In this document: in pieces, positions 3,745 to 58,030 of the stretch
How the letters are laid out: each line of letters starts with the position of its first letter
Position numbering within the stretch: the stretch's first letter is position 1
Origin: a virus
Length of the DNA stretch: 64,000 nucleotides
Direction: 5' to 3' (one strand)
Virus record (IMG/VR): IMGVR_UViG_3300009093_000036
Span: 124,001 to 188,000 of that record
Position numbers and translations under genes: made by a program
Notes under the pieces: generated by a model
What the model saw: the letters and a program-made list of their open reading frames with translations, nothing else
Told to the model about the DNA's origin: nothing
The model's database searches: none

Positions 3745-4701
3745 TCAATCCGGATTGCGGGCCCAGAACTGTTCGAGGAGCTGGACACAGAGGCCATCGA
3801 GGGCATCGTAGTCCGGTTCCTCCCGCAGCGTGGACGTCTTCACGAGCTCCTTGATCTGAACGCGCTCCGCCTCCGCCCACGCGACGAGAGCATCGTACGA
3901 CCACGCCCCACGCCGAATCGCGAGGAGCTCCTCAGCATCTGGACGGCGAACGAGGACGTAGCCGGTGGTGAGGATCTCCTTGCACATCCGCATCAGCCGG
4001 ACGAGGTGCATGGCATGCTTGGTGTCGTACCCGCTGCGAGCTTCGAGCTCGGCACGCACTGGGTTCCGCGACTTCACCCAGTGCATGTACTGGTTCCAGT
4101 GCTCGCTGGCTGCCTTGTACCGCTTCTCGTTCTGCACGAGCTCCATGACATTCGAGGAGACCTGGGTCCCCGACTCCGTCAGCTTGTCGAAGGCGCCCAT
4201 CATGTCAGGCGTGATCTTCATGTTGGGGGCGAGCCCGAACTGCTCGCGTGTCGGTGCAGCCTTCGGCGGCTCCAGCAGCCACTTCCGGTGCGTCTTGATG
4301 CGGTGGAGCTGCCCCATGGCGTAGCCGCTGAAGGTCTCCTCCGCCTTCTTCGAGACGAAGAGGTCGCGGTTGCGGCGGAGGAGGAACCCCTCGTCGGTCA
4401 TCCCTTGGATATCTTCATGCTCGACATACAGAGCTTCGACGATGTTCGGGTTGCATCCCGCGGCAAGCCGCATGAACTTCTGCAACCCGAAGATGACGAT
4501 GTCCTTGGCATCCTCATCAGGCTTCTCGGCCGCAGTCTTCGCCTCGTGCTGCTCGAACGTCTTGGCGAAGCCCAGGACGTACCGACGAGGCGGGATCGCG
4601 ACTCCCTTGAAGTCGAGGTCCGATTCCGGCATCGACGTTCCGTAGGAGTGGCTGCCCGCCTTCGCCAAGTAGATCGTGTGCTTCTCGATGTCGAAGTTCA
4701 C
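3745..4701 (-). CDS. RlaP-like predicted nucleotidyltransferase
   Basis: 318 residues with the polymerase-beta-type nucleotidyltransferase signature: GSHSYGT (residues 16-22), then D28-L-D30, and GVAIPPRRYVLG. This arrangement is typical of the PF10127 family. That family includes RlaP, which is found with RNA ligases and RNA-repair genes. Its substrate here is unknown; tRNA or other RNA ends are the obvious candidates from the family. It starts with GTG, and its start overlaps the stop of the VWA gene (GTGA), so the two are translationally coupled. A strong terminator follows. No RNA ligase is visible in the window. Confidence 0.8.
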   Translation of the reverse strand: MNFDIEKHTIYLAKAGSHSYGTSMPESDLDFKGVAIPPRRYVLGFAKTFEQHEAKTAAEKPDEDAKDIVIFGLQKFMRLAAGCNPNIVEALYVEHEDIQGMTDEGFLLRRNRDLFVSKKAEETFSGYAMGQLHRIKTHRKWLLEPPKAAPTREQFGLAPNMKITPDMMGAFDKLTESGTQVSSNVMELVQNEKRYKAASEHWNQYMHWVKSRNPVRAELEARSGYDTKHAMHLVRLMRMCKEILTTGYVLVRRPDAEELLAIRRGAWSYDALVAWAEAERVQIKELVKTSTLREEPDYDALDGLCVQLLEQFWARNPD

Positions 4702-5360
4702 CGAGAGCCCCTGCGCCCGCTCTCGATGCTCTTCTTGTCGGCCGTCGAGAGCAGACCATGGCTGCGCAGAGCACCTGCACTGCCACCACGTGCACGCGAC
4801 GTCGCCTGCGACAGGACGGCGTACGTCCCTTCCGTGGCGCCCTTCTGGTACTTCGCTGCCGCGTTCGCGCTGATGCCGAGGCTGGCCGCACCCTGCACGG
4901 CATCGATGTCGGCGCCGAGGAAGACGAAGGTCCAGGAGTACTTCTCGGACTGCTCCTTCACCATCTCGCGGACCTTCTTGCCGTCCTTGAACTCGATCGA
5001 CGAGTTCTCCTGGCCATCGGTGATGATGACGACGATGACCTTGTCCGGACGTTCCGCTTCCGGCTTCGCGGAGAGGCGCTGGCCGAGCTCGATGATGCCG
5101 CGGGCGACCGAGTCGTACAGCGCGGTGCCGGCGCCTCCGGGCTTGTAGCTGAGGGTCGTCAGCTCCGGGACCTCCGCCAGCGGCTTGTCGACGTACTCGA
5201 CCTTGTAGGCGCGGTCGAACTTGATGAGCGACATCGTCGCCGGCTTCGGGTCCTTCTTCTGCTCGTTGAGGTAGATGTTGAACCCGGCGATGGTCTCCAG
5301 CGTGCAGTTGTCCATGCTGGGGCTCTCGTCGAGGATGATCATGATCGCGGTCTGGTCCAT
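4698..5360 (-). CDS. von Willebrand factor A domain protein
   Basis: 220 residues, almost all one VWA domain. The metal-ion-dependent adhesion site is intact: D11-E-S13-P-S15, a threonine in GGAGTALYD, and an aspartate in VIITDGQE. SWTFVFLGADIDAV near residue 160 is common in VWA proteins of phages and actinobacteria. There is no signal peptide, so it should be cytoplasmic. The start MDQTAIM follows AAGGAGAAACGC. The gene runs into the RlaP-like gene through a GTGA overlap, suggesting the two act together. VWA domains usually scaffold complexes, so the partner is likely a protein assembly, not a small molecule. Confidence 0.82.
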   Translation of the reverse strand: MDQTAIMIILDESPSMDNCTLETIAGFNIYLNEQKKDPKPATMSLIKFDRAYKVEYVDKPLAEVPELTTLSYKPGGAGTALYDSVARGIIELGQRLSAKPEAERPDKVIVVIITDGQENSSIEFKDGKKVREMVKEQSEKYSWTFVFLGADIDAVQGAASLGISANAAAKYQKGATEGTYAVLSQATSRARGGSAGALRSHGLLSTADKKSIESGRRGSR

Positions 5361-5381: not shown

Positions 5382-5413
5382 CAAAAGAAGAAGGGCTGCC
5401 GCAGCAGCCCTTC
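5382..5413 (-). terminator. rho-independent terminator downstream of tmRNA
   Basis: Minus-strand perfect 10-bp stem GAAGGGCTGC / GCAGCCCTTC with a TGCG loop (5390-5413), followed by TTCTTTTG. It ends the transcript carrying the tmRNA, just before the VWA gene's ribosome site. Confidence 0.85.
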
Positions 5414-5512
5414 TAGGTGATCCGTCGCGTGTTCGCGACACAGGTACGTCGGCTTTCGGCTACCACCCCGACCGACGCGGTTGCATAGAGCTACCCCTCC
5501 TTTCTTACTTGA

Positions 5513-5899
5513 TGGAGCTGTCGGGAATCGAACCCGAGTCCGCGGTGCCTTCTTCTGTGCGTCTACGTGCGTAGCACTTAACTTGATGTTCGCCTTGCGG
5601 CCCGCCATCTAGCTCCGTGTCGAGCTGCGGTTAGGGGCCTCACGGCCCTCCACCAGTTCCCAAGAGCGCCTTGCGGCCCCCGCTTGAGTACGGCCGGGGT
5701 TTGCCTAGCTCGATTACGCCAGTTCGAGAGAGCGCTAGGCGGCTCTCCCGGCTGACGGCTCAGGCCGCGTTCGCGAGAACGGGCTGGGCGTAGCTGCTGT
5801 CGTTCGCAGTTACTGATGGTCCGCTTTTTACGAGGCCTGCTGACCAACCTCGGCACGCAACACAGTCGTCGAACACCACGTCGAAACCATTACAGCCCC
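5513..5899 (-). ncRNA. ssrA: transfer-messenger RNA (tmRNA)
   Basis: About 387 nt with every hallmark of one-piece tmRNA. The 5' end GGGGCUG (5899-5893) pairs with the 3' end CAGCUCC (5520-5514) to form the acceptor stem. Its third pair is G-U, the alanyl-tRNA synthetase identity element. The 3' T-arm reads GGGTTCGATTCCC. Near the 5' end are GGTTTCGAC, GCCGAGG and GCCTCGTAAAAAGC, conserved in bacterial tmRNAs. The tag frame (5807-5760) encodes ANDSSYAQPVLANAA followed by TGA. The terminal CCA is not encoded; TCA follows the discriminator A. It would rescue stalled ribosomes and tag the products. A strong terminator follows at 5382-5413. It may be cut from a transcript starting before the 84-aa gene. 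Confidence 0.95.
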
Positions 5900-6309: not shown

Positions 6310-7638
6310 TCAACGGGGGACCAGAGCTTCGATCGTCTGCAAGCCCCGTCGCGAGTCCCACGTGTCGGGGAACAAGTTGAGGTGCAGAGGGATCTCGCCG
6401 TGCGTCATCTCCATGAAGAGGTGGCCCTCCTTCTGTGCGATGCGGCGCAGCGTCGGGTGAACGCTCTGGCTGGTGCGGAGCTCGACACGATACGCCCATG
6501 CCGGCAGCGACTGCACGACGTGGCACGTCACCTGGAAGCCCATCGCGATGTACGACTGCCTCTCGACGTCGCTGACGTTGAGCTTCTTGATGCGCTCGGT
6601 CTGATCCGCCACGAGCTTCTTCGCATCCACTCGAAGCCCCTCCGGCATCTGCTCGTAGTACCAGGGATGGAAGCCCCAGTTCGTGGTGAGCAGAGGCATC
6701 TGCACGAAGCCGTTGCGATGACGCTGAAGATCCCGGAACGAGCCGAAGTCGAGCGAGAACGTCGAGTCGATGACGCCGTACTTCTGAAGGATGCTGGGCA
6801 TCGCCACCCTCGTCGGACGAGACACCAGAAGCTGCATCATCTTCCTGTCGTGCGGCCACTTGAACGCCGACAGGCTGACGTGCACACCCGATGGTGCCGT
6901 GACGGGGAGCTCCTCCGTGTACGCGTACGTCAGCATCACCTGCTTGCGCCACTCCCACTCCTCGGCCGACATCTTGTAGTCGAAGCCGCTGTGCGGGTAC
7001 TGACGATGCAGGGCACCGAGGATCTCGTACGCCATGCTGGATGTACTCGGCTCCGGATGAGCGACGAGCATGCGGATCTTGTCCCGCGCCTGACGCAGGT
7101 TCGTGTGCCACGACAAGTTCGTGTGCGTACCCGCCGGGATGAACGCACGCAGCACGTCGAAGACACGAGCCTTCACTGCCTTCTCGTACTGCTTGCTGTC
7201 TTCCCCGGTCCTCTGCGGGTACGTGCGCTGGACGTGCGCGAGCATCTCCGGGAACGCCCGATGATAGAAGGCCATCCAGTCGAGCTGGATGAGCTGCCCC
7301 TCGACGCCAGCGCTGCCAGGCGACTCGAACTTGGCGTTCGAGAAGTCCATGTAGCGAGTACTCGCCTCCTGACCCGAGTACATCGGATTGTCCTGGACGG
7401 CCTTGGCCATCAGCATCGAGACGCCCTCGATGAAGAGCGTGGTGGTCCCACAGTCTCCGATCGAGGCGTGCCCGTAGCCGACGTAGTAGTCGTCCATGAA
7501 CTTGCCGGAACCCTTGGCCTCCACCTTCGGGAGATGGTCCTCGACACTCGCAGGGCTGCGTGAGTACAGCGCCTGAAGCATCGCGTTGTCCTCCGGATGG
7601 AGGTTGTCCTTGATGATGATCTTGCGGGTCATGTTCAT
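6310..7638 (-). CDS. tandem ThyX-like (flavin-dependent thymidylate synthase family) protein
   Basis: 442 residues made of two ThyX-like halves. The first has GYGHASIGD (54-62), IEGVSMLMAKAV and QEASTRYMDF (90-99), the ThyX fold around the signature, but the RHR triad is absent. The second has DLQRHRNGF, with RHR at 306-308, and HVVQSLPAWAYRVELRTSQ near the C-terminus. ThyX makes dTMP from dUMP using folate and FAD. A double-length form with one degenerate half is known in some bacteria and phages. It may make dTMP or a modified pyrimidine. The dCTP deaminase two genes upstream fits a pyrimidine-deoxynucleotide role. It starts MNMTRKI after CTAGGAAC. Confidence 0.8.
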   Translation of the reverse strand: MNMTRKIIIKDNLHPEDNAMLQALYSRSPASVEDHLPKVEAKGSGKFMDDYYVGYGHASIGDCGTTTLFIEGVSMLMAKAVQDNPMYSGQEASTRYMDFSNAKFESPGSAGVEGQLIQLDWMAFYHRAFPEMLAHVQRTYPQRTGEDSKQYEKAVKARVFDVLRAFIPAGTHTNLSWHTNLRQARDKIRMLVAHPEPSTSSMAYEILGALHRQYPHSGFDYKMSAEEWEWRKQVMLTYAYTEELPVTAPSGVHVSLSAFKWPHDRKMMQLLVSRPTRVAMPSILQKYGVIDSTFSLDFGSFRDLQRHRNGFVQMPLLTTNWGFHPWYYEQMPEGLRVDAKKLVADQTERIKKLNVSDVERQSYIAMGFQVTCHVVQSLPAWAYRVELRTSQSVHPTLRRIAQKEGHLFMEMTHGEIPLHLNLFPDTWDSRRGLQTIEALVPR

Positions 7639-50732: not shown

Positions 50733-51833
50733 TCAGACGAGCTTGAACTTCTGAGCCAAGATCGAAGGAGGCGGAGGGCCCACACCCGCGGCGGTGCCAA
50801 GAGTGGTCAGGTACGTCATGAGCTGGTTGCCACAGACTCCAGGCTCGATCGCCGTAGCACCGCCAGCCAGGACGCTGCCATCGAGGATGACCTGGGCGCC
50901 CTTCACGCGGGCCTCGGAGCCACCCTCGACCTTCGCCTTGCCGTTGGCCTTCATGCTGAGGTCGCCATCGACCTGGACGTCGTAGTTGCCCTTCACGCGG
51001 AGGGAGTAGTTCGAGCCGACCATCTCGGTCTTCGTCCCGTCCATCTTCAAGAGCATGCTGTAGGTGGCGTTCGTGACCTCGCCCGTCTCCGTGTTGATGC
51101 CCTGAGCGGCAACCATCACCTCCCAGACCTGTGCATCACCGCCGTCGGGTCCACGCAGCGGGAAGTGACGGACACGGAACGAAGCCTTCGCGTCCTGCGC
51201 GTACTCGTTCATGTGGAAGACGTACGAGGACGGGGCATTGCCTCCCGCATCGTTCTCTTGGCGCTCGGTCGTCCAGCGGATGTTCCCGCCGAACGTGTCC
51301 ATCGTGTAGTTCTCGGCGAAGTCCCGCACGTAGTTGTTGATGGGGATGTAGATGCGTTGAGCGAGCTCGGTCGAGCCGAGCTGAAGGACACCACCACGCC
51401 GAAGCAAGATGAAGTTCTCGTCTCGCGTCGTCAGGAAGATGTCCCCGGGCTGCATGTCGAGACGACGTCCGCGGAACGAGACGTCGGTCGTGCTGCCACC
51501 TGCGGACGTGCTGTGGGTGGGGGTGCCATCGTCGCTCTCGACGGACGACGGGATGGCGATGAAGCCGAGGATGAACGGCGGGGTTGTGTCGTTGCCTCGG
51601 AAGATCTGACAGCGAGCTCCTACCTCGGGGAGAAAGGAGATCCCCTCCCCGTTGTCGTTGTGGAAGTACGGCAGCGCGCACTGAAGGTCCTGGAAGGGCT
51701 TCTGCGTGTGACGGGTGACGACGTCCACGGTGAAGTTCGCCTTGTTGACGTTCGTCACCATCGCTTCCTCGATGACGGCGGGGAAGAACTCGGACGTCGA
51801 GGGTCCGCTTGCGCTGTAGTGACCGTCGCCCAT
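50733..51833 (-). CDS. baseplate spike (membrane-puncturing) protein
   Basis: 366 residues. The N-terminal region has an OB-fold-like part (FTVDVVTRHTQKPFQDLQCAL, ISFLPEVGARCQIFRGND), as in gpV and gp5 hub/spike proteins. The C-terminal part is a short-period beta repeat (LRVKGNYDVQVDGDLSMKA, KAKVEGGSEARVKGAQVI), the trimeric beta-helix of a spike. It would sit at the tip of the tube and pierce the host envelope. Its start overlaps the RNA polymerase stop (TGATG), so the two are translationally coupled. Confidence 0.8.
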   Translation of the reverse strand: MGDGHYSASGPSTSEFFPAVIEEAMVTNVNKANFTVDVVTRHTQKPFQDLQCALPYFHNDNGEGISFLPEVGARCQIFRGNDTTPPFILGFIAIPSSVESDDGTPTHSTSAGGSTTDVSFRGRRLDMQPGDIFLTTRDENFILLRRGGVLQLGSTELAQRIYIPINNYVRDFAENYTMDTFGGNIRWTTERQENDAGGNAPSSYVFHMNEYAQDAKASFRVRHFPLRGPDGGDAQVWEVMVAAQGINTETGEVTNATYSMLLKMDGTKTEMVGSNYSLRVKGNYDVQVDGDLSMKANGKAKVEGGSEARVKGAQVILDGSVLAGGATAIEPGVCGNQLMTYLTTLGTAAGVGPPPPSILAQKFKLV

Positions 51834-54800
51834 CAGTACCTGGAGACCCCACGACCGTTGCCGAACTCGGCCCCGTGCGCAAGCCCAGGGATCGGATGCA
51901 GGCCGTGGATGTCCGACTTCTCGTTGAGCGCCGCCGCCGTCATGATGTGCTCCTGGAGGCGGTTCGACTGAAGTCGCGCCATCCAGTCGTGCTGCTTCAG
52001 CGCCGTCGTGGTCTCCGTGGCCTTCAGCACCGGACGCACCTCGATCGGCTTTTGGTTCTTGAGCACGGTGCGGTTGATCTCCTCGACCACCGGGAACTGC
52101 ATGTGGTCCCCGCGGAGGATGGTCGGGTGGTCACCGGGGTCCGAGACCTCGACGGTGCTCGTTGCGTTGCGCACCGTGAGCTCGACGTGACGACGAAGGA
52201 CATCCTCCTTCTCGTAGATCTTGCCGATGCGATCGACCATGTGGTCCTGCGTCGCTTCGAGGCCACGGGTCTTGAGCAGCATGTTGAGGTTCGGGTCTCC
52301 CTCGGAGAGCTGCTCGCCACGCTGGAACTTGTAGCCGGCCTTCACGTGCGGAAGGAGGGGCTGACGAGAGTAGAGATCGACCTTGCTCTCTGCGAAGCGG
52401 ACCTTGTGACCGCCCTGCGGCTGAGCCTCGACACGAGTGACGACGCCTGCACGCGGAGCGATGATGGCGTCGACCGGCGACCGCTTCGCGACACCGAACA
52501 CGCGCTCGACGGTGCTGAACTCGTCGACGGCTCCACGCTGCGTCGGGACGATGCCCTGGTTGTGGGTCTGCTTCAGCATGAGCTGTGCAGCGCGCTCTCC
52601 GATCGCCTGCGCCGCCATGATGCCGACGTTGTCGCCCAAGTCGTAGTTGACGCCGGACGGGTGCTTGCCCATGCAGGTCGAGCACACCCCGTGCGGCATG
52701 CGGCACTTCAGGGGCGAGCGAACGAACAGGTTCGTGACGCCAGCCTTCGAGAAGGTCTGCTGGAGGCCGGGGGTGATGACGGTGCCCGCAGGGATCGTCT
52801 TGCCTCCGGCGGTGACGGGAGAGGCGAGATAGCGGTCGACGAGGTCGCGGTCGTTGACGCCCAGGCTGATGCCCGAGTGCGTCCCGCAATCCATCGCCGT
52901 GATGGGCGAGTCGATGTTGGACTGAATGAGCTCCTTCGTGAGGACGCCCGGGTCTCGAACTGCGTCGACCTTCTGGATCGTGCCCTTTCGTGCTCCAGCC
53001 GCCTGGAGGAAGTAGCCGCCAACGTCGACACCCTCGGAGAACGACCGCGTGATCGGAACCTTCGAGGCGTGGCCGAGGTGGTTCTCGACGAGCATCGGGG
53101 CGATCACGAGGCCCTGGAACTGCTCCTTCTTCGCCTTGATGCCCGAGGACCGCATGTCCGAGATGTTCGTCGGATGCTTCTTGAAGTGCTCGTCGTAGGT
53201 CTCGTGCAGCTTCTTGGTGGCGTCCACCCAGATCTGCGTGCGCTCTGCGTCGGGCTTCCCTTCGGCACGGCTCTTCGCCGCCGCGATGATCTTCGCCCGC
53301 TCCACGCGCATCGGCTCCAGGTCCGAAAGACGAACGGTGTGTCCGCTCTCGAAAGCCATCTTGAAGCCGAGCTGGGTGAGGTTGCGGGTGAACGGCTCGA
53401 AGATCGCCGGGGCATGCTGTGCGGTCTGCCGAAGCATGTCCGTGACGAACTTCTTCGAGATGGGGGTATCGATGCCGGTGAGGACCTGCGCCTTGTACTG
53501 GTCGGGCACGATGTGAGAGATGCGGACACGGCCGAGCGTCGTGCGGTCCTTACCGACCGTGATGACGTCGTCGAGGTTGATCTTGTTGTTGACGAACGCC
53601 GCCTCCGCTTCCTTCGCGGAAGCGAACGTCTGGTTGGTCTCCCGCTTCTTCAACGACATGCGGTAGAGAGCGAGCATCGATTCGTTCGTCGGCGTGAACA
53701 GGACTTCACCCGTGCTCGCCGAGATGGAACGGTTCGACGGCAAGAGCTTGTAGGCCTCCTGCACCGCGGCATGCTGGATGGGGAGCATGAGCGCGACCGT
53801 GTCGCCGTCGATGTCTCCGCCGAGCGGGGGAAGAACGAGAGGACTCACCTTGATGGCTCGCGAGTCCGTGAGCTTCACCTTCTGACCGATGATGCCGTAC
53901 TGATGGAGCACGGGGTCGCGCTTCATCAGGACCGGGCGCTCCTCGATCTCACGCCGCAGAGCAGCCTCGGCGACAGCGGAGCGCTTCGAGATCTCCTGCT
54001 GTGCCTGGATCGGGTTGTAGCCCATCTGCGTGAGGCGATGACCCACCATCGGTCGGAAGAGCTCGAACGCGATCTTCTTCGGTACGCCGATCTCGTCGGC
54101 CCCGAGCCCGGGGTCTGCGACGATCGTGGCTCGCGCCGTGTAGTCCTGCTTCTTGCCGATGACCTTGTCCTGGAAGAAGCCGTCCTTCGGCGAGTCGCCG
54201 GCGATCGTGTGCAGGATGCCGGGGAGGAAGCGGCCTCGCACCGGGTTGCCTTGGAAGTCGATGTCGAGAGCCTTCTTCCCCTTCGGGGTCGTACCGAAGA
54301 GGTTCTGGATCTCCTGGTAGAGATCTCCCTGTGCCTGAAGAAGACGGCGATCGGGGATGCCCTCCTTCTTCGAGGTCTCCAGGGACGAGTTCACCATGCC
54401 GAGCCGGCGATAGAGCTGATTCAGCGGATCGATGCGGTCCGTACCTTCCGCGCTCTCCTGGAAGGGGCGGTAGATCGGAGGCAGCACCGGCAGCAGCTTC
54501 ATCGTGTACGCCTCGGAGGGCGTCTTGCCGTGCTCCTTCAGCGCACGCAGCGACTTGTACGCGAAGACCGCGTTGTTGAGCTCGCTGCTCTTCACCTTCG
54601 GGTCGTCGATCATCGACTTGTAGTGCTTCAGCCTCTGCTCGACATTGATCTTGGCGAGTCCGTCACGGATCGCCTCGCCTCCCGTCTTGCCGTTCAGCTT
54701 CATCTCACCCGAGACGATCTTCTGGATGTCCTGCTTCTGGATGCCCAGCAGCGACGAGATCGAGTCCGCGAAGATCGGATTCGGCATCGGGGCCGCGAGC

Positions 54801-57800
54801 TCGATGTAGCCCCAGCGCTGCTTGTCCGGACCGAAGATGTGCGGATCGAAGATGCCTCCGCTCTTGGGCTTCATGTTCTTGGCGGCAACCGTCAGCGAAG
54901 GCTCGGTGACCTTGCCGCTCTTGCCACCCGCCCACTTCAGCGTCTCCTCGTCCGTCTGCGGGACGAGGCTGAGCATGCTGCCCTTTTTCTCCAGGTTCAG
55001 GCCCGTGGCCTGGAGAAGAGCACCGAACTTGTTGTAGACGTACGGAACCTGCGGAGGAGGGATCATCCGACCGTTCGCAAGAGCTGCCCACAGTGCCTCA
55101 GCCTGCGGCCGATCGGACTTGAGGGTCTGCATCTCGCCCAGGTTCTGACGGAGACCAGCAGCGAGTGCGCCGTACACACCGAGAGAGCCCAGGCTCTGAG
55201 CGCCACTCTCACCACCGCCACGAGGGACGAGGTTCGTGTCGTACTGGATGTGCGGCATCCCGGTTGACTTGATGTAGGCGCCGCCGTGACGAACGTGCGT
55301 CTTCTTGTCGATCTGGTGTTCGAGCTGGAACACGTAGTGCGGGCCGACGGTCACCTCGCCGAGCTTGCGATCGGTCTTGGGGTCGACGAGGAGCTCAGTC
55401 TCCTTGAGGCCGTGGTGCTTCAGCTCGTCCTGGATCTTCTTCAGGTAGTCGGTCTGCCCGTCGAAGTTCTTGACGATGTAGGGCTGTCCCGTCTTCTCCG
55501 CGATCTTGCCCGCTGCCGTCTCCAGGATCTGCCCCGGGTTCATGCGGCCCGGCACGGAGACCGGGTTGATCAGCATCTCGACGTGCTCGTGCTTGCCGTT
55601 CTTCGTGTAGTACGGCATCTCGTTGTCGGGCAGGATCTGCGTGACGATGCCCTTCGCGCTGTGGCGGGTCGAGACCTTCGAGCCAACGATCATCGGCTCC
55701 TTCGTCTTGACGTGAACGGTGATGTTCTTGCCCGAGCGAACGACACGCACGACCTCGCCGGTGTGCTCGTGGTCCCACGTCAGAGCCGCGTTCGTGTAGT
55801 CGAGGCGGCCCTTCTTGGTGAGCCGGTCGAGCATCTTCGCGTCGATCGTGTCGGGGTTCTTCTCTTCACGAAGAGCGAGAACGAGCGGGTCGCCGGGATG
55901 AACCGTGGCTCCCTCCTTCACAACACCATCATCACCGATGTGGTTGTACTGCGTGGGCTGGAAGGCCGTGCCCTTGTGCGCGACGAAGCGGTTCTTGTCG
56001 ATGACGTGGTCATCCGTCACGTAGAACGACGGCTTCAGGAGATGCTCGGTCCCCATCTTCTTGGCCGCGGACTCGGAGAGCGCGATGCCATCCTCGTGGT
56101 TCGCCCCGTTCGCCAAGTACGCGACGCGGACGTTCGTCCCCAGGGCGAGCGTCCCGTTCTTCGTGAAGGAGTGATCGGCAAGTACCTGACCTGTGTGAAC
56201 TCGGTCGCCCACCTTCACGAGGGGCTTCGAGTTCAACATCGTCTTCTTTTCGTTGAGCGGGTAGTGGTCGTAGATGTGAACGGAGTGTTCATGACCCGCC
56301 GGATCTCGCACCACGATCTCGTCCGACAGCACCTTCGTCACGAAGCCCGCCACCGGGGCCTTGTGGGAGAGGAACGTCTCACCAATCCGCTTCTCGAACG
56401 AAGCCCCAGGTGCCGCCTGCACCTGCACGAGAGGAGCTTCGCGCCCCGTCAGTGAGAGCGCCTGCGCCATGTGACGCGCCGACATCGTCGTGCGTCCTGC
56501 TGCGTCGTTGCCCATGAACGGGACGAGGTTAGTCTCGGTGGAGAACACCTGCGTCGGAGAGATGAGTGCGTACTGCGCTTCCTTCAGCGGACGCTCTTCG
56601 ATGTCGCCGTGCTGGTTCGAGACACGGACCTTCTCGTTGATGGCGCGCGGAACACCGCCATGCCACGTGATCTGGTCGGGCAGCACCACGATCGACTTCG
56701 CTGCTTCCGCGGGTGTGAGCTCCTCGACCTTCCCCGTCTTGAGGTTGTAGAGCTTCGTGTACGGCTTGCGATCACGGACCACGATGCCGGACGTGAGGTG
56801 GGTGGTCGTGCCCGGGGAGCCCTCGGGGGTGAAGACGGGGTCGACGAAGCCGAGCTGAGAGGGATCCACGCTCGTGTTCGAGAGCGTGACCTGATGTTCG
56901 GACTTGATGCCTCCCGGGCCCATGATCGTCGTCTGGCTACGGTCGGCCAGCATCGACACGGGGTTCGTCTGCTTCGGGGTCGAGGTCAGCCCCGTGATGC
57001 CGAAGACGTGGTTGATCGGCTTCTGGATGAGGTCCGGCATCACGATGTCGCGCAGCACCGACTGCGAGCCCGCAGTGAGCGCTTCCTGCGTCGACTTCTT
57101 GCCGAGGGACTTCAGGACACGACCGTGGATGTCGTTCTTCGAGGCATGCAGCCGCTCGATGAAGTGGTCCGCCGGCGTCCACAGCTCCTTGAACTCCAGG
57201 GAGTCGATGGGATCGGGCCGCGTACGCTCCGCGCTGACGTCGATGAGCTTGCCACTCGCTCGAAGGAGCGCCTCTCCCGAGACCTGATCGAAGCCCTTCC
57301 CCAGCGTCGTCTTCGTGACGGCCGGATCCATCTTCGTCTCGCTGAAGTACTTCACGATCGCAGCCGGCAGGTCGGTACCCGTCGGAACGTTCGCATCCTT
57401 CATCGCCGTGTAGAACGAGTTGAGGTCCTGCGAGTACCGGGACTTCTTCAAGTTGGCGTCGAAGTTCTTGTCGCCCCAGGCCTTCTTCATCTCGTCGTCG
57501 GTGATGCCCGTGGCCTTGAGGACCGAGTAGAGGGGGATCTTGCGGGCCCCCGTCTTCACGAAGAGGTAGCCGCTGCCAGGCTCCATCTGCACATCGAAGG
57601 GACGGCCCTTCGCGAGCTGGAACTGCGCCTCGAACTCTCCGGCCTTCTCGGTCGCTTTCACGTAGGCACCCGGACGGAGACGCCACTGGTTCGTGACCGA
57701 CTTCTCCTGGCCACCGTGGATGAAGGTGTAGTGGCGCGTCAGCTTCGGGATGTCGGCGATCTTCATCCGACGACCGACCAAGGTCTTGCCGGCGCGATCG

Positions 57801-58030
57801 ACCACCTCGACGTCAGCGACGACCGGCGCCGTGTACGACCGACCAGAGAGGCGGGCCTGCATCTGACCCTTGATGTCGTCGGTCCCGAGCGTGGAGTCCG
57901 ACACCTCCAAGTTCTTCACCCGAACCTCGATCCCCGTCTTCGGGTCCGAGACCGGGAACGTGGCCTGGATCTCCGCGAGGAACCTCGACTTCAGGTCCTC
58001 GTACTGACGGTTCGGGTCGGTGTTCAGCAC
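51833..58030 (-). CDS. single-chain multisubunit-type RNA polymerase (beta-beta' fusion)
   Basis: 2065 residues with both catalytic subunits in bacterial order. Beta, about 1-1015, has FIHGGQEKSVTNQWRLRPG; NVRVAYLANGANHEDGIALSE; VSTRHSAKGIVTQILPDNEMPYY; YVFQLEHQIDKKTHVRHGG; and a C-terminus GEMQTLKSDR...LLQATGLNLE. Beta-prime, from ~1020, has FDPHIFGPDKQRWGYIELA; PPIYRPF...LYRRLG; DYTARATIVADPG; RDPVLHQYGIIG; catalytic GGDIDGDT (~1405); trigger loop AGARKGTIQKVDAVRDPGVLT (~1677); and a zinc site from AMDCGTHSG and CRMPHGVCSTCMG. The N-terminal zinc ribbon of beta-prime is missing. It starts with GTG. No alpha, omega or sigma gene is seen. Coupling to the spike gene suggests a virion polymerase. 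Confidence 0.93.
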   Translation of the reverse strand: MLNTDPNRQYEDLKSRFLAEIQATFPVSDPKTGIEVRVKNLEVSDSTLGTDDIKGQMQARLSGRSYTAPVVADVEVVDRAGKTLVGRRMKIADIPKLTRHYTFIHGGQEKSVTNQWRLRPGAYVKATEKAGEFEAQFQLAKGRPFDVQMEPGSGYLFVKTGARKIPLYSVLKATGITDDEMKKAWGDKNFDANLKKSRYSQDLNSFYTAMKDANVPTGTDLPAAIVKYFSETKMDPAVTKTTLGKGFDQVSGEALLRASGKLIDVSAERTRPDPIDSLEFKELWTPADHFIERLHASKNDIHGRVLKSLGKKSTQEALTAGSQSVLRDIVMPDLIQKPINHVFGITGLTSTPKQTNPVSMLADRSQTTIMGPGGIKSEHQVTLSNTSVDPSQLGFVDPVFTPEGSPGTTTHLTSGIVVRDRKPYTKLYNLKTGKVEELTPAEAAKSIVVLPDQITWHGGVPRAINEKVRVSNQHGDIEERPLKEAQYALISPTQVFSTETNLVPFMGNDAAGRTTMSARHMAQALSLTGREAPLVQVQAAPGASFEKRIGETFLSHKAPVAGFVTKVLSDEIVVRDPAGHEHSVHIYDHYPLNEKKTMLNSKPLVKVGDRVHTGQVLADHSFTKNGTLALGTNVRVAYLANGANHEDGIALSESAAKKMGTEHLLKPSFYVTDDHVIDKNRFVAHKGTAFQPTQYNHIGDDGVVKEGATVHPGDPLVLALREEKNPDTIDAKMLDRLTKKGRLDYTNAALTWDHEHTGEVVRVVRSGKNITVHVKTKEPMIVGSKVSTRHSAKGIVTQILPDNEMPYYTKNGKHEHVEMLINPVSVPGRMNPGQILETAAGKIAEKTGQPYIVKNFDGQTDYLKKIQDELKHHGLKETELLVDPKTDRKLGEVTVGPHYVFQLEHQIDKKTHVRHGGAYIKSTGMPHIQYDTNLVPRGGGESGAQSLGSLGVYGALAAGLRQNLGEMQTLKSDRPQAEALWAALANGRMIPPPQVPYVYNKFGALLQATGLNLEKKGSMLSLVPQTDEETLKWAGGKSGKVTEPSLTVAAKNMKPKSGGIFDPHIFGPDKQRWGYIELAAPMPNPIFADSISSLLGIQKQDIQKIVSGEMKLNGKTGGEAIRDGLAKINVEQRLKHYKSMIDDPKVKSSELNNAVFAYKSLRALKEHGKTPSEAYTMKLLPVLPPIYRPFQESAEGTDRIDPLNQLYRRLGMVNSSLETSKKEGIPDRRLLQAQGDLYQEIQNLFGTTPKGKKALDIDFQGNPVRGRFLPGILHTIAGDSPKDGFFQDKVIGKKQDYTARATIVADPGLGADEIGVPKKIAFELFRPMVGHRLTQMGYNPIQAQQEISKRSAVAEAALRREIEERPVLMKRDPVLHQYGIIGQKVKLTDSRAIKVSPLVLPPLGGDIDGDTVALMLPIQHAAVQEAYKLLPSNRSISASTGEVLFTPTNESMLALYRMSLKKRETNQTFASAKEAEAAFVNNKINLDDVITVGKDRTTLGRVRISHIVPDQYKAQVLTGIDTPISKKFVTDMLRQTAQHAPAIFEPFTRNLTQLGFKMAFESGHTVRLSDLEPMRVERAKIIAAAKSRAEGKPDAERTQIWVDATKKLHETYDEHFKKHPTNISDMRSSGIKAKKEQFQGLVIAPMLVENHLGHASKVPITRSFSEGVDVGGYFLQAAGARKGTIQKVDAVRDPGVLTKELIQSNIDSPITAMDCGTHSGISLGVNDRDLVDRYLASPVTAGGKTIPAGTVITPGLQQTFSKAGVTNLFVRSPLKCRMPHGVCSTCMGKHPSGVNYDLGDNVGIMAAQAIGERAAQLMLKQTHNQGIVPTQRGAVDEFSTVERVFGVAKRSPVDAIIAPRAGVVTRVEAQPQGGHKVRFAESKVDLYSRQPLLPHVKAGYKFQRGEQLSEGDPNLNMLLKTRGLEATQDHMVDRIGKIYEKEDVLRRHVELTVRNATSTVEVSDPGDHPTILRGDHMQFPVVEEINRTVLKNQKPIEVRPVLKATETTTALKQHDWMARLQSNRLQEHIMTAAALNEKSDIHGLHPIPGLAHGAEFGNGRGVSRY

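Follow-up and report, generated by a model that had tools for sequence, protein, structure and literature searches.

tmRNA releases stalled ribosomes and tags incomplete proteins for destruction, and phage-encoded tmRNA as a kind is already well known. A list compiled in 2014 comprised mycobacteriophages and Bacillus phage G (PMC4131195). The mycobacteriophages of cluster C (Bxz1, Cali, Catera, and others) and Wildcat also encode their own tmRNA but belong to a different lineage from the phage studied here (PMC4131195), and in Wildcat the tmRNA is the most highly expressed lytic gene (PMC7474061). By 2021, a data set of 18,146 phage genomes held 402 (2.3%) that carry one, with 133 unique structures (PMC9004378), and in IMG/VR we recovered at least 120 stretches with a single 5'-end pattern, many of which are tmRNA genes. 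Huge phages carry tmRNA together with SmpB among their translation genes (PMC7162821), whereas we found no SmpB in our phage. The Methylophilales phage Melnitz also encodes ssrA, for which upkeep of the hijacked machinery or recycling of host proteins was proposed (PMC9004378); its tmRNA differs from ours in being two-piece, circularly permuted, of the alphaproteobacterial type, and associated with a glutamine riboswitch.

In the annotated phage collection we found no near match to the tmRNA described here beyond 42 bases in Myxococcus phage Mx1, which cover the PK1 region and are 93% identical. Like ours, the Mx1 tmRNA is one-piece and does not have an encoded CCA; unlike ours, it has the ARAGORN tag VNTNVFGSQMMAAA and lies within a large tRNA array. 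It is unannotated in OR576727.2 (L002:2959-3335), where a short "Hef-like endonuclease" CDS overlaps its 3' part. Chromosomal tmRNAs of Sandaracinaceae (Myxococcota) resemble the phage RNA in the start of the tag (ANDSTYA), its end (GCGGCCTGA), a TTTCGAC box and the absence of an encoded CCA, but their tags have 10 residues (ANDSTYAVAA or ANDSTYALAA) and only short sequence matches connect them to the phage gene. What is new in the present case is a documented lineage that keeps tmRNA as its main RNA gene and in which the end of the tag varies.

The stretch of DNA that we analyzed, called the window below, is 64,000 nucleotides long and spans positions 124001 to 188000 of a virus record of 195,355 bp (G000), from a large, uncultured phage. 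The features discussed are as follows, in window coordinates.

5510-5899, minus strand: ssrA, a complete one-piece tmRNA, mature part 5513-5899 (ARAGORN, Rfam RF00023, covariation)
5893-5899, minus strand: acceptor stem P1, 5' strand GGGGCTG with G3, 7 of 7 pairs formed with 5514-5520
5514-5520, minus strand: acceptor stem P1, 3' strand CAGCTCC, with the discriminator A at 5513
5521-5537, minus strand: T-arm TCGGG-TTCGATT-CCCGA, 5 of 5 paired, loop TTCGATT
5818-5852, minus strand: pseudoknot PK1, CGAGG/CCTCG and GGTC.GC/GC.GACC, five pairs changed on both sides
5760-5807, minus strand: tag frame ANDSSYAQPVLANAA followed by TGA (ARAGORN coding part 93-140), preceded by the resume context GTAACT
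6310-7638, minus strand: thyX (thymidylate synthase X), upstream of the tmRNA (Pfam Thy1, E 1.4e-12; synteny)
4698-5360, minus strand: gene downstream of the tmRNA, PHROG 7371 (function unknown), likely start ATG at 5360
3745-4701, minus strand: RlaP-family nucleotidyltransferase (RNA repair; Pfam RlaP, E 1.6e-20)
5389-5414, minus strand: terminator-like hairpin of 11 pairs followed by TCTTTT, some 100 bases past the tmRNA on its downstream side

An earlier note on this DNA had called the locus a phage-encoded tmRNA and named an Infernal search as one of its checks. Both programs applied here agree with that identification. ARAGORN reports a single RNA gene in the window, a minus-strand tmRNA at 5513-5899 (the note left the strand out) with the same tag frame as noted, ANDSSYAQPVLANAA. 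RF00023, the sole Rfam match within the window, covers 5510-5899 (minus) over the full model (1-374) and scores 154.1 bits (E 1e-60), where the gathering score is 47. The G3-U acceptor stem, the T-arm and the GCCTCGTAAAAAGC box that the note described are all present, the box forming the 3' part of PK1. That the gene is phage-encoded is borne out by the record, where genes for a terminase large subunit, a tail sheath protein, a major head protein and a phage RNA polymerase are also present; the remark that tmRNA genes are rare in phages finds no support in the 2021 count or in the IMG/VR stretches. The 3' end is encoded as ...CTCCA-TCA, that is, A-TCA, and the gene lacks CCA, which must therefore be added to the transcript.

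Searches of IMG/VR with the terminase and the RNA polymerase gathered relatives of this phage, and five further records carry the tmRNA: G001 and G005, whose large terminase subunits are 95% and 77% identical to that of G000, and G011, G012 and G013 (RNA polymerase, 54%). Comparison of these RNAs supports the structure. The G3-U alanine identity pair is kept in all six family sequences; pairs 4 and 5 of the acceptor stem covary among relatives (G-C to C-G and C-G to A-U), the T-arm shows a compensatory change from T-A to C-G, and both helices of PK1, which lies upstream of the tag, contain pairs altered on both sides. When the structure of PK1, of the T-arm and of part of P2 was written out for the five distinct family sequences, 98.3% of the cells were paired and 6 pairs were changed on both sides; 0 of 500 shuffles reach this covariation score, and the signal is lost when the partners are slid. 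Arms of a putative PK2 can be read in the sequences (GCCTAGC/GCTAGGC, and CCGAC/GTCGG in G005). Folding the complete RNA as a single strand gives a z of -2.67, a value that carries no weight here because the method cannot show pseudoknots. A chance match or a mis-call is excluded because of the E value together with the compensatory changes across the five family sequences, and we conclude that window positions 5510-5899 on the minus strand hold a real, conserved phage tmRNA.

The position of the gene is conserved as well. In G000 the tmRNA has thyX on one side and the gene at 4698-5360 on the other; the three share the minus strand and belong to a region of nucleotide and DNA metabolism. In all four of the other records examined for this (G001, G005, G011 and G012) it comes immediately after thyX and points the same way, within the order dcd ... 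thyX - tmRNA ... recD2-like helicase. The placement is shared by phages whose ThyX proteins are about 50% identical. Two RNA polymerase relatives, G004 (177 kb) and G016 (161 kb), showed neither a tmRNA nor a thyX match in records that may be incomplete; a candidate in G016 for a tmRNA reduced to its tRNA-like domain was rejected and is tRNA-Lys. Among the records examined for synteny, the 4698-5360 gene and the RlaP gene, the second one downstream of the tmRNA, are near it in G000 and G001 only. The product of 4698-5360 appears von Willebrand A-like by eye (a DESPSMD motif) and has no Pfam match, and RlaP nucleotidyltransferases usually accompany RNA ligases (PMC7824862). The hairpin at 5389-5414 resembles an intrinsic terminator, a suggestive likeness only, since shuffles of the 1.2-kb region give 0.7 such hairpins by chance. 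A scan limited to sigma-70 types, in a phage with its own RNA polymerase, found no promoter-like site for the tmRNA. In that polymerase (window 51833-58030, minus strand), a single chain of 2,065 residues unites the Rpb2 domains of beta with the Rpb1 domains of beta', and a catalytic-type DIDGD motif occurs at about residue 1406; among named phages it comes closest to Vibrio phage D69 and Salmonella phage Arash, with identities of about 30%. At megablast sensitivity, the annotated phage collection contains no DNA relative of the first 12 kb of the window, and the best terminase matches there are about 25% identical.

The tag frame begins with alanine, ends in a small or hydrophobic residue and is followed by a stop, as a tmRNA tag does. 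G000 and G001 share ANDSSYAQPVLANAA, their frames differing by one synonymous change; G005 has ANDSSYAPAALAA, G012 has ANDNSYAPAALAA, and G011 and G013 both have ANDSSYAQARAA. ARAGORN gave ATPSPFSRTRPEPSAGRVA for G001; we set this call aside as read in the wrong frame, since after alignment the frame yields the same peptide as in G000. The start AND[S/N]SYA and the terminal -AA are fixed in all family tags. Because Ser4 is written AGC or TCG among relatives while the start and the -AA are conserved, the peptide itself seems to be under selection, and both RNA structure and peptide are thus maintained. The conserved start includes an SspB-type box, (A)ANDSSY (AAND..Y), and the SspB requirement has been given as AANDENY (PMC8512704).

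The reading that we favor, and hold to be probable, is that the phages carry a functional, vertically inherited ssrA which performs trans-translation with phage RNA and host proteins, keeping ribosomes available during infection. The transcript would be processed by the host, with CCA added afterwards, and charged with alanine via the G3-U pair; the charged RNA would bind host SmpB and EF-Tu and enter ribosomes stalled on broken or nonstop mRNA during infection. A-ANDSSYAQPVLANAA would then be appended to the unfinished protein and the ribosome released at TGA. Since the SspB-type box and the terminal Ala-Ala are kept, the probable destination of the tagged products would be the ClpXP of the host or an AAA+ protease like it, on the assumption that the host enzyme and adaptor have this specificity. 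The most likely benefit would be free ribosomes at a time when mRNAs of host and phage undergo cleavage or decay. SmpB (PF01668) was not found in G000-G005 or G011-G013, and SspB had no match in the six tmRNA-bearing records, each search including positive controls. Because SmpB is missing from the phages, the tmRNA probably depends on the host, whose SmpB is the likely partner.

A different fate for the tagged products has to be considered, since the tag has the terminal Ala-Ala of an ssrA degron but has Asn instead of the usual Leu at position -3. The earlier note had drawn attention to NAA in place of LAA and suggested that the peptides might be steered elsewhere. The ending was noted correctly, and it is uncommon: among 72 distinct viral tags, sampled with a 5'-end pattern that is blind to the tag, 42 end in LAA and 30 do not, 59 end in AA, and none ends in NAA. 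G000 and G001 share an identical tail, VLANAA, which a six-base indel separates from the ALAA of G005, and G011 and G013 have another atypical end, RAA. It could therefore be that rescue proceeds in the same way but the LANAA tail leads to slower turnover, to another protease or to no degradation at all. We think this unlikely, because Ala-Ala, the main element for E. coli ClpXP, is present at the C terminus of every family member, and replacement of the antepenultimate Leu brings no more than a modest rise in KM in E. coli (PMC7652416). Moreover, the residue at -3 is variable, being N, L or R in close relatives and L, M, V, A, Y, I, K or Q across the sampled viral tags, and the SspB-type box is kept. 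Asn at -3 is thus unusual but of doubtful weight, and the inference of another fate is weak. That the LANAA and RAA tails are both phage adaptations which alter the fate or rate of product destruction, with the host adaptor box retained, is similarly improbable; if true, it would mean that the phage frees ribosomes without the usual host degradation of the tagged products.

Two further readings deny the RNA its usual role. It might act as a regulator or decoy that competes with host tmRNA for SmpB, or that senses stalled ribosomes to time lysis. The tmRNA of phage DS6A, which consists of a tRNA-like domain only, does inhibit tmRNA in E. coli (PMC4131195, PMC11915505), phage tmRNA has been said to sense the state of the host (PMC7162821), and the failure to find SmpB in the phage would fit a competitor; but a decoy has no need of a tag frame or pseudoknots, both of which are kept by selection here, and we regard this as very unlikely. 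The gene could also be a passenger, a host ssrA captured, as by imprecise excision of an element integrated at that gene, and without function in the phage, given that host ssrA is a common integration site (PMC11915505) and that ssrA fragments are known in prophages (PMC9004378). What is present here, however, is a whole gene and not a 3' fragment, the sampled bacterial tmRNAs give short matches only, and the placement next to thyX has stayed constant through the divergence of ThyX, alongside compensatory evolution of the RNA. Synteny and covariation thus largely exclude a passenger, which we consider scarcely credible.

Trans-translation with host proteins, the reading we prefer, invites the question of which host supplies them. 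Several features, none of them conclusive, suggest a member of the Myxococcota: the absence of an encoded CCA, the similar start of the tag, the near-identical PK1 of Mx1, and a lipoprotein match. The lipoprotein-like gene lies just upstream of the window (genome 118080-119336, minus strand), contains a DAGVDA-rich stretch and has a Myxococcota-like composition. Its product matches Myxococcota proteins weakly and gives no match in the Burkholderiales: of 56 genomes from the order to which a Sandaracinaceae genome belongs, 18 have a match, as against 0 of 60 from the order of a Rhizobacter genome. This is a hint only, because the protein is compositionally biased. A host in the Burkholderiales, which ANDSSYALAA tags had brought up, is not favored, because the sampled Burkholderiales genes encode the CCA that the phage gene lacks and because of this distribution of lipoprotein matches. 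Among candidate hosts, SmpB is present in three genomes of the Sandaracinaceae group, and SspB matches occur in 25 of 28 genomes of the Sandaracinaceae genome's order, 16 of them over the cut-off.

Why phages keep tmRNA is an unsettled question, for which this lineage offers a clean case. The tmRNA is the only RNA gene that ARAGORN finds in G011 and G012 and one of two in G000, G001 and G005; being kept beside thyX in phages with zero or one tRNA, it is not simply part of a tRNA array. Its interest is modestly increased because the location is stable, tRNAs are nearly absent and the tails form a natural series; this series (LANAA, LAA and RAA on a conserved start) bears on the weight of the residue before Ala-Ala. 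The sole tRNA of G000 (genome 43675-43747) has a CUA anticodon, of the amber suppressor type; a copy 79% identical, likewise with CUA, is present in G001 and there is none in G005, G011 or G012. Amber read-through and rescue by tmRNA could interact. Stop-codon recoding tied to this tRNA was considered, and TAG use gives no clear sign of it: TAG ends 12-13% of the long frames in G000 and G001, versus 15-22% in the relatives without the CUA tRNA. TTA codons are nearly absent throughout, with 1 among 45,092 codons in the long frames of G000 and 3-6 per genome in the relatives.
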